Shown: piece after piece, positions 36,709 to 41,777 of the stretch | Layout of the letters: each line of letters starts with the position of its first letter | Position numbering within the stretch: the first letter of the stretch is position 1 | NCBI GenBank assembly: GCA_000023405.1 | Contig: CP001643.1 | Coordinates: 2,170,001-2,234,000, forward strand | DNA length: 64,000 nucleotides | From: Brachybacterium faecium DSM 4810 | GTDB taxonomy: Bacteria; Actinomycetota; Actinomycetes; Actinomycetales; Dermabacteraceae | Direction of reading: 5' to 3' | Made by a program: the position numbers and the translations under genes | Notes under the pieces: generated by a model | The model's database searches: none | Seen by the model: the letters and a program-made list of their open reading frames with translations, nothing else | Told to the model about the DNA's origin: nothing

Positions 36709-36714
36709 TAGTGT
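36709..36714 (+). promoter_or_regulatory. -10 box (TAGTGT), probable leaderless promoter of orn-AGE
   Basis: The hexamer ends 6 nt before the GTG at 36721; no ribosome binding site is seen. Confidence 0.5.
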
Positions 36715-36720
36715 GGTCCG

Positions 36721-38625
36721 GTGACCTCCAGCTCCACACGTGCCATCAACGACCGCATCATCTGGGTCGATTGCGAGATGACCGGCCTCGACAAGCAGCG
36801 CGACGCGCTCGTCGAGATCGCGGTGCTCGTGACCGACGCCGATCTGAACATCCTCGGGGACGGCGTCGACGTCGTCATCAAGCCGCCGGCGGAGGCCCTC
36901 GAGGGCATGGACCCCTTCGTGGTGAACATGCACACCGTCTCCGGCCTGATCGAGGAGCTCGACGGCGGGATGACCCTCCAGGAGGCGCAGGCGCGGTGCC
37001 TCGCCTACGTCCAGCAGTACTGCCCCGAGCCCGGCAAGGCGCCGCTGGCGGGCAACAGCGTCGGCACCGACCGCGTGTTCCTGGACCGCGACGTGCCCGA
37101 GTTCGCCCAGTGGCTCTCCTACCGCACGATCGACGTCTCCAGTCTCAAGGAGCTCGCCAAGCGCTGGTTCCCGCGGGTGTACTACAACATCCCCGCCAAG
37201 CACGGCGGCCACCGGGCGCTCGCGGACATCCGCGAGTCGATCCAGGAGCTCAAGTACTACCGCGAGGTGCTGCTGGTGGATGAGCCGGGACCGACCACCG
37301 CCCAGGCCCAGGCCGCCTCGAAGACCTTCGAGCTGCGCGATGAGCCGGCCGCCGCCCCTGCTGCGGCCCCCGGCCCGCACCGGGTGTGGCTGGAGCGCGC
37401 CTCCCATCGCACATGGCTCGAGGGCGAGAGCGACGGACTCCTCGAGTTCGCCTCCGCCTCCGACCGGGACGACGGCGGCTTCGCCTGGCTCGACGAGGAC
37501 GGCGACGCCGACCTCACGCGCCCCTCGGAGCTGTGGATCACCTGCCGGATGACGCACAGCTTCGCTCTCGGCCACCTGCTGGGTCGCCCGGGCCTCGCCC
37601 GACTCGTCGACCACGGGATCGCCTCGCTGCGCGGCGTCTTCCACGACGACGAGCACGGCGGCTGGTACTCCGCCGTCGCCGGCGGCGAACCGGTGGACGA
37701 CTCCAAGCAGGCCTACGCCCACGCCTTCGTGGTGCTCGCCGCCTCCTCCGCCGTGGCCGCCGGCCGGCCCGGGGCGAAGGAGCTGCTGGATGAGGCCCTG
37801 CGGGTGCTCGACGAGCGGTTCTTCGACGACGCCGCGGGGATGAGCGTAGACACCTTCGACCGCACCTTCTCCACCTGCGAAGAGTACCGCGGGATCAACG
37901 CGAACATGCACACCGTCGAAGGGCTGCTGGCCGCGGCGGACGTCACCGGCGACCGCCGCTGGCTGGACCGCGCCGTCGGCATCGCGACGCGTGCGATCGA
38001 CGAGTTCGCCCGGGCCAACGACTGGGCGCTGCCGGAGCACTACGACACCGACTGGACTCCGCTGCTGGACTACAACCGGGACCAGCCCGCCCACCCGTTC
38101 CGCCCCTACGGCGCGACGATCGGGCACTGGATCGAGTGGGCTCGTCTGGTGCTCCATGCCCGCGCCGCGCTCATCGCGCTCGACGGCGAGGCACCGGAGT
38201 GGATGCTCGAGTCGGCGACCGCGCTGATGGAGAAGTCCGCCGCGGCCTTCGGGGCCGACGGCGCACCGGGCTGGGTGTACACCGTGGACTGGGACGGCAC
38301 CCCCGTCTCCACCGAGCGGATGCACTGGGTCGCGGCCGAGGCCGTCGGCGCCGCCGCCGTGATGCACCAGGTGACCGGGGACCGGATCTGGGCCGAGCGG
38401 TACGAGCAGTGGTGGGAGTACATCGCCGAGCACCTGCTCGACGCCGAGGGCGGCTCCTGGTTCCACGAGCTCGATGCGACCAACACGCCGCAGGGCGTGA
38501 CCTGGCCCGGCAAGCCGGACATCTACCACGCCTTCCAGGCGACGCTCATCCCCCGCCTGCCGGTGACACCGACCCTCGCCGCCGCGATGCGCGACGGGCT
38601 GCTGGACCACGACCTGCGGGCCTGA
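36721..38625 (+). CDS. orn: Oligoribonuclease fused to AGE-family (mannose isomerase-like) domain
   Basis: One uninterrupted 634-residue frame joins two unrelated enzymes. Residues 1 to about 200 are a complete DEDDh oligoribonuclease (WVDCEMTGLD with Asp17/Glu19, AGNSVGTDRVFL, KHGGHRALADI), which degrades 2-5 nt RNAs. An Ala/Pro-rich linker of about 20 residues leads to an N-acylglucosamine 2-epimerase-type barrel (about 222-634: LWITCRMTHSFALG, YAHAFVVLAASS, EYRGINANMHTVEGLL, EHYDTDW, MHWVAAEA), closest in motifs to mannose/sulfoquinovose isomerases. No stop, ribosome binding site or convincing start occurs at the junction (a lone GTG at 37384 has none). Whether the product is processed or internally initiated is unknown. 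Confidence 0.85.
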   Translation: MTSSSTRAINDRIIWVDCEMTGLDKQRDALVEIAVLVTDADLNILGDGVDVVIKPPAEALEGMDPFVVNMHTVSGLIEELDGGMTLQEAQARCLAYVQQYCPEPGKAPLAGNSVGTDRVFLDRDVPEFAQWLSYRTIDVSSLKELAKRWFPRVYYNIPAKHGGHRALADIRESIQELKYYREVLLVDEPGPTTAQAQAASKTFELRDEPAAAPAAAPGPHRVWLERASHRTWLEGESDGLLEFASASDRDDGGFAWLDEDGDADLTRPSELWITCRMTHSFALGHLLGRPGLARLVDHGIASLRGVFHDDEHGGWYSAVAGGEPVDDSKQAYAHAFVVLAASSAVAAGRPGAKELLDEALRVLDERFFDDAAGMSVDTFDRTFSTCEEYRGINANMHTVEGLLAAADVTGDRRWLDRAVGIATRAIDEFARANDWALPEHYDTDWTPLLDYNRDQPAHPFRPYGATIGHWIEWARLVLHARAALIALDGEAPEWMLESATALMEKSAAAFGADGAPGWVYTVDWDGTPVSTERMHWVAAEAVGAAAVMHQVTGDRIWAERYEQWWEYIAEHLLDAEGGSWFHELDATNTPQGVTWPGKPDIYHAFQATLIPRLPVTPTLAAAMRDGLLDHDLRA

Positions 38626-40793: not shown

Positions 40794-41777
40794 ATGACTG
40801 TGCACCGGATCGGAATCGTCGGCTACGGGAACCTGGGACGCGGCGTCGAGATCGCCACCTCCCTCCAGGAGGACATGCAGCTCGTGGGCGTGTTCACGCG
40901 CCGCGACCCGTCCACCGTGAGCACCGTGCACGCGCAGACCCCCGTCCGCTCGATCGACGCGCTCGAGGAGATGCAGGACGAGATCGACGTGCTCGTGCTC
41001 TGCGGCGGCTCGCGGACCGATCTGCCCGAGCAGACCCCTCAGCTCGCCGAGCGCTTCACCGTCGTGGACAGCTTCGACACGCACGCTCGCATCCCCGAGC
41101 ACTTCGCGAAGGTCGACGCCGCCGCCCGCGCAGCCGGCACCACCGCGCTGATCTCCACCGGATGGGACCCCGGCCTGTTCTCGATCAACCGCGTGTACGG
41201 GGAGGCCATCCTCGCCACGGGCACCACCTACACCTTCTGGGGCCGCGGCCTGTCCCAGGGACACTCCGACGCGGTGCGCCGCGTGGACGGGGTCGCCGCC
41301 GCGGTCCAGTACACCGTTCCCTCCCAGGAGGCGATCGCACGCGTTCGCGCCGGCGAGCAGCCCACGCTGAGCACCCGCGAGAAGCACACCCGCGAATGCT
41401 TCGTGGTGCTCGAGGACGGGGCGGACGCCGAGACGGTGCGCGAGGAGATCGTCACGATGCCGCACTACTTCGAGCCCTACGACACGACGGTGACCTTCCT
41501 CAGCGCCGAGGAGCTCGCCCGCGACCACCAGGGCATGCCCCACGGCGGCTTCGTGATCCGCTCCGGGGAGTCCTCGCCCGGCACCACGCAGACCATCGAG
41601 TACCGCCTCCAGGAGGACTCGAACCCCGAGTTCACCGCGAGCGTGCTCGTCGCGTACACCCGGGCCGCGGCGCGACTGGCCGCCGCCGGGGAGCACGGCG
41701 CGAAGACCCCGTTCGACGTGGCACCGGGCCTGCTCTCCCCGAAGTCTCCCGAGCAGCTGCGCGCCGAGCTGCTCTGA
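40794..41777 (+). CDS. ddh: meso-Diaminopimelate D-dehydrogenase
   Basis: NADP-dependent one-step synthesis of meso-diaminopimelate from tetrahydrodipicolinate and ammonia, feeding lysine and meso-DAP peptidoglycan. The 327-residue protein has the Rossmann motif GIVGYGNLGRGVE, CGGSRTDLPEQ, STGWDPGLFSINR and GRGLSQGHSDAVRR, all typical of the Corynebacterium-type enzyme. It points to meso-DAP in the cell wall. AACGAGG lies just before the ATG. It complements lysA in this window. Confidence 0.93.
   Translation: MTVHRIGIVGYGNLGRGVEIATSLQEDMQLVGVFTRRDPSTVSTVHAQTPVRSIDALEEMQDEIDVLVLCGGSRTDLPEQTPQLAERFTVVDSFDTHARIPEHFAKVDAAARAAGTTALISTGWDPGLFSINRVYGEAILATGTTYTFWGRGLSQGHSDAVRRVDGVAAAVQYTVPSQEAIARVRAGEQPTLSTREKHTRECFVVLEDGADAETVREEIVTMPHYFEPYDTTVTFLSAEELARDHQGMPHGGFVIRSGESSPGTTQTIEYRLQEDSNPEFTASVLVAYTRAAARLAAAGEHGAKTPFDVAPGLLSPKSPEQLRAELL

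Follow-up and report, generated by a model that had tools for sequence, protein, structure and literature searches.

The closest described relatives of the protein reported here are two kinds of free-standing enzyme. Oligoribonuclease (Orn) of Mycobacterium smegmatis (7wik) ends at residue 209 and forms a homodimer in which residues 186-195, a C-terminal helix, lie against the partner subunit in a ‘handshake’, with residues 197-209 disordered (PMC9676404; this and the other PMC sources are cited for excerpts of the papers). A second free-standing Orn structure is that of Blastococcus (9f7m). YihS, a sulfoquinovose/mannose aldose-ketose isomerase with structures from Salmonella and Escherichia coli (2zbl, 7ag4, 2rgk), is likewise free-standing; enzymes of the YihS kind can convert mannose, fructose, glucose, lyxose and xylulose into one another (PMC7762179). 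Here, we describe a gene of Brachybacterium faecium DSM 4810 in which an Orn domain instead runs on into a YihS-type isomerase domain. The gene lies in a stretch of 64,000 nucleotides (hereafter, ‘the window’), which is part of one 3,614,992-base contig. No description of an Orn-isomerase fusion was found in the open-licence PubMed Central literature, among the matches listed.

One reading frame, two complete enzymes

A single 634-codon frame fills positions 36721-38625 of the window, from a GTG at 36721 to a TGA ending at 38625, with no internal stops. It is composed of the following parts:

36721..38625, + strand: orn-isomerase fusion gene, 634 amino acids, GTG start, TGA stop (domain matches, conserved joined frame)
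36742..37272, + strand: oligoribonuclease (DEDDh) core, residues 8-184, with D17, E19, D117, H164 and D169 (profiles, alignment, model, structure matches)
37273..37335, + strand: C-terminal tail of Orn, residues 185-205, with a predicted helix at 193-202 (7wik alignment, model)
37336..37383, + strand: variable Ala/Pro linker, residues 206-221 (low predicted local confidence, or pLDDT; substitution rates; length variation among species)
37384..38610, + strand: YihS-type aldose-ketose isomerase domain of the AGE superfamily, residues 222-630, with R276, H397, H469, E472 and H603 (profiles, alignment, model, structure matches)

The protein therefore begins with a complete DEDDh oligoribonuclease that ends in a C-terminal helix and, after a short and variable Ala/Pro linker, continues as a complete YihS-type sugar isomerase. 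A sequence-only reading of this DNA had described an oligoribonuclease, an Ala/Pro linker and an AGE-family isomerase in one frame, and the frame and the profile matches bear it out. The Pfam families RNase_T and GlcNAc_2-epim match residues 14-176 (84.6 bits) and 252-607 (378.7 bits), the NCBIfam oligoribonuclease profile matches residues 10-193 with 246.7 bits (cut-off 106), and the NCBIfam D-mannose isomerase profile NF051846 matches over its full length at residues 224-624. The whole genome holds one Orn match and one isomerase-family match. AlphaFold2, applied to the monomer with a 54-sequence alignment, predicted two domains with confidence, a helix past the nuclease core at 193-202 and low confidence at 208-217; the predicted template modeling score (pTM) is 0.69, so that the model does not fix how the domains are arranged relative to each other. 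Although the sequence-only reading had let Orn end at about residue 200 and the isomerase begin at about 222, the Orn part takes in the predicted helix 193-202, so that the linker proper corresponds to approximately residues 206-221. Its length differs from species to species in the aligned fused sequences.

The nearest solved structures for the nuclease half are the Blastococcus and M. smegmatis Orn, which share the DEDDh core with the fusion protein and show 53-54% identity to it in the structural match. Fused or separate, each of the 45 distinct sequences has all five DEDDh residues. The phosphate-cap residues reported for OrnVc, S108, Y129, R130 and S135 (PMC6613908), are matched by S113, Y134, R135 and S140 of the fusion, as judged from the spacing from D117 and an alignment with REXO2. 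In the alignment with 7wik, the M. smegmatis helix 186-195 corresponds to residues 192-201, in agreement with the predicted helix. The fusion thus seems to lengthen a naturally loose Orn tail beyond the part that aids dimerization, and may for that reason be tolerated.

For the isomerase half, the nearest solved structures are the Salmonella and E. coli YihS enzymes, with 44-46% identity, target template modeling (TM) scores of 0.95-0.97, and the active-site histidines and arginine in common; the fold match to 2zbl has an E-value of 4.1e-42 and a target TM-score of 0.97. R276 and H397 occur in 45 of 45 sequences, H469 and E472 in 44 of 44 and H603 in 43 of 43 of those that reach these positions. 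H397, H469 and H603 agree with the three-histidine rule for the active site of the YihS subfamily of AGE isomerases (PMC7762179), and H469 aligns with Salmonella YihS H248, the residue mutated in 7ag4.

Distribution of the fusion

We searched 47 genomes of the family, 38 from Brachybacterium and nine from other genera. A frame spanning the junction was found in 37 of the 38 Brachybacterium genomes; this count includes three in which the contig ends inside the isomerase (G001, G002 and G004) and one, 85% complete, with a frameshift near residue 530 (G022). In the 38th, an assembly of 750 contigs that is 88% complete (G005), no match was found. Among the other genera, one of nine genomes (G065) carries the fusion, and in the remaining eight (G060-G064 and G066-G068) orn and the isomerase gene are adjacent but in separate frames. 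The question raised by the sequence-only reading, whether relatives encode one protein or two, is thus answered as one in the genus and in G065 and two elsewhere in the family; its proposed refutation, that all close relatives carry a stop between the domains, does not apply. After removal of identical sequences, the genus contributed 36 distinct fused sequences and G065 one, giving 37 in all; two of them (L018 and L051) stop at a contig edge. Because both domains are full length and joined in these 37 sequences, the joined frame is not a chance occurrence. This looks like a true, genus-wide and long-standing gene fusion of two known enzymes.

The unfused pairs are closely packed. In Dermabacter hominis (L050), an in-frame TAG separates orn and the isomerase gene; stop and start overlap as ATGA in G062 and as GTGA in G066; the junction in G064 reads TGATATG, and the spacing is tight in G064, G067 and G068. 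In Dermabacter and three other genera of the family, the genes, their order and their strand are as in the fusion, and their isomerases cluster together, but each gene has its own stop and start. Additional, distant Orn-like matches with 36-38% identity occur besides the main Orn in G023 and G066 (L126 and L127), and a second isomerase, 47% identical, in the fragmented genome G002 (L128, contig C286).

Outside the family, the fusion was not seen among the matches listed. In the order, we drew 248 genomes, 19 of them from the family; among the other 229, of which five had no match, no sequence spanning both domains was found among the matches listed. In the class, both domains were spanned in the two Brachybacterium of 394 genomes and, among the matches listed, in none of the other 392 (19 of the 394 had no match at 1e-60). 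These lists could show one fused gene as two matches, as with G026. A re-check of 35 listed extra-family isomerase sequences with open frames of at least 600 amino acids found an Orn match in none of them, with up to 2.6 kb upstream fetched (less than 600 bases for L187 and L201), and was positive for four of four family controls. Furthermore, no Orn was found at 53 isomerase loci of other families (L056-L065 and L067-L109) in a scan covering the best 80 of 129, with approximately 4 kb of flank on each side for most and almost nothing upstream for L071 and L088. The adjacency therefore looks specific to this family.

Origin of the fusion

In a tree of rpoB/rpoC from 20 genomes, G066, G064, G067 and G068, all with separate genes, fall outside a group of Brachybacterium with G065 and Dermabacter (support 99.6/100), within which G065 and Dermabacter are grouped (100/100). 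In a quick isomerase tree of 68 sequences, G066 branches first, G065 again goes with Dermabacter (support 98), and Brachybacterium goes with G064, G067 and G068, with a weak support of 85. The two trees thus give Brachybacterium different sisters, but in both the fused lineages do not form one group and a separate pair branches first, which suggests that the separate gene pair is the ancestral state. Since the fused lineages are ungrouped, at least two events are required, either two fusions (in Brachybacterium and in G065) or one fusion with later splitting. In our judgment, two fusions are a little more likely, given the ATGA overlap in G062 and the closely spaced genes at the junctions in the outer genera.

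A foreign origin of the isomerase in some genera was also considered and is not supported: the 15 isomerases selected from the family cluster together in the same quick tree, though with a Shimodaira-Hasegawa-like approximate likelihood ratio test (SH-aLRT) value of only 87. In one Dermabacter group (L112, L113 and L115), the separate isomerase has a long branch of 0.69 (the tree includes L112 and L113) yet retains the active-site residues, and its substrate has possibly changed.

We propose the following course. In the ancestor of the family, orn would have been followed immediately by an isomerase gene, the two forming a compact pair that was perhaps translationally coupled. On the line leading to Brachybacterium, a small junction change would then have eliminated the stop, so that the two frames became one. 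Given a pre-existing adjacent pair, the fusion can be explained without any functional link. The sequence-only reading had offered a true fusion that ties RNA decay to sugar metabolism; the fusion holds at the gene level throughout the genus, whereas the tie is unproven and the older pair could suffice.

Function of the fused protein

Among 34 genus sequences, the median ratio of nonsynonymous to synonymous substitution rates (dN/dS) was 0.21 for Orn and 0.25 for the isomerase, against 0.36 for the Orn tail and 0.80 for the linker; synonymous rates are compressed in such GC-rich genes, so that the contrast carries more weight than the values. L018, L051 and the G065 sequence were left out, the frameshifted L045 was kept, and 531 of 561 pairs were usable for the linker. 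Both halves are under purifying selection, and the linker is much less so.

The fused gene, derived genus-wide from an adjacent pair, probably encodes one bifunctional protein with two halves that act independently of each other. The Orn half would dimerize, with the tail helix of each subunit holding the other subunit, and would clear di- and short oligonucleotides to mononucleotides. The isomerase half, tethered by the flexible linker, would act as an independent enzyme on mannose/fructose or a related aldose-ketose pair; B. faecium, the type species, uses mannose (PMC3035206). With the two activities running independently, the fusion would mainly fix 1:1 co-expression. Actinobacteria often have both Orn and NrnC (PMC8492067), and this genome has one RNase D/NrnC-like match (PF01612) and one DHHA1 match, in a 912-amino-acid frame that, from its length, is presumably alanyl-tRNA synthetase. 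Streptomyces ornA null mutants grow, although slowly (PMC10126417), so that Orn is not always indispensable in actinobacteria. No GGDEF match was found in the genome; the nuclease probably serves RNA turnover, not breakdown of cyclic di-GMP, and a cyclic di-GMP link was rejected on this ground as the principal explanation.

Several points weigh against the proposal of independent halves acting on mannose. The NF051846 score is 485-487 bits, below the curated cut-off of 600, and the isomerase domain is therefore not named a D-mannose isomerase here; all four of the free-standing relatives scanned (L056, L112, L116 and L118) also score below this cut-off. The nearest structures are of YihS, a sulfoquinovose isomerase, and the genome also encodes a mannose-6-phosphate isomerase. 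Persistence through the genus, and perhaps a second fusion, could reflect selection for physical linkage, which the idea of independent halves would underrate. Finally, an additional free isomerase may possibly be made from an internal start.

This last point can be extended to an alternative in which the gene yields two products, the full fusion and a free isomerase initiated near the end of Orn. The sequence-only reading had found neither a ribosome binding site nor a good start between the domains. This is correct for the linker, where GTG V222 has no Shine-Dalgarno sequence (-1.7 kcal/mol), but just upstream, within the Orn tail, there is a candidate:

37264..37278, + strand: GAGGTG, six bases, then GTG V186 (37276-37278), a possible internal ribosome site and start (sequence, Shine-Dalgarno pairing)

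The pairing at V186 is -9.5 kcal/mol, and that at the starts of separate isomerases ranges from -6.6 to -10.5 kcal/mol (eight sequences). In the junction region (from 180 bases upstream of the isomerase anchor to 30 bases downstream of it), 19 of the 37 fused sequences have a start-like in-frame codon with pairing of -9 kcal/mol or stronger, which only 35 of 1132 start-like codons reach inside the much longer domain stretches. However, counted per sequence the background is equal, since 19 of 37 also carry one or more of these sites within a domain, where the stretch is longer. In addition, 388 of the 1132 domain-internal codons reach -5 kcal/mol, so that the pairing at the starts of separate isomerases proves little by itself. 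The V186 site is spelled by the Orn residues EVLLV in GC-rich codons, the sequences are related, the position of the internal site is not the same in all, and ten of the 37 have nothing of -5 kcal/mol or stronger in the junction region. We therefore regard a second product as unlikely, at perhaps one chance in a handful.

A functional linkage, in which the activity of one half responds to the nucleotides or RNA ends on which the other acts, appears improbable. The fusion has been kept through the genus and occurs also in G065, a genome that neither tree places as sister to Brachybacterium, and nucleotides, ATP above all, stimulate the related N-acetylglucosamine epimerases (PMC6333288). However, that stimulation is known from another branch of the AGE superfamily, the linker is fast-evolving and predicted to be flexible, and the genes stay separate in eight of the nine other family genomes. 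A stronger form would be a two-way metabolic sensor, in which RNA turnover, through dinucleotides or mononucleotides, tunes isomerization, or sugar tunes the clearance of nano-RNA, with selection having joined the genes twice in the family. We consider this a long shot. A real link would mean that nucleotide salvage and sugar use are connected through an unexpected point of control. That the junction stop was lost recently in this one strain, as the sequence-only reading had allowed, or that the joined frame is a sequencing error, is rejected as next to impossible, since 37 of 38 genus genomes are joined and nothing was found in favor of either.

A core RNA-decay enzyme is here joined to a carbon-metabolism enzyme in a persistent architecture, and the unfused pair is alive in neighboring genera. 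Fused and unfused relatives provide a natural before-and-after comparison between a functional link and mere gene order.

Putative promoter and gene neighborhood

Upstream of the fusion gene lies one further feature:

36709..36714, + strand: TAGTGT, a -10-like hexamer six bases before the GTG start, with a putative promoter role (sequence)

Of 31 upstream stretches, 11 (including that of the window) have TA(C/G)TGT in precisely the same position, which suggests a leaderless mRNA for the fusion gene in these species. The gene neighborhood gave no functional hint at the 22 loci checked (flanks of approximately 4 kb; several loci represent one species twice). The downstream ABC (ATP-binding cassette) and GntR genes recur at none of the 22, a thioesterase neighbor recurs at five and a glycosylase neighbor at three. 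Further downstream of the fusion, and outside the finding described here, window positions 40794-41777 hold a gene encoding a diaminopimelate dehydrogenase C-terminal domain.
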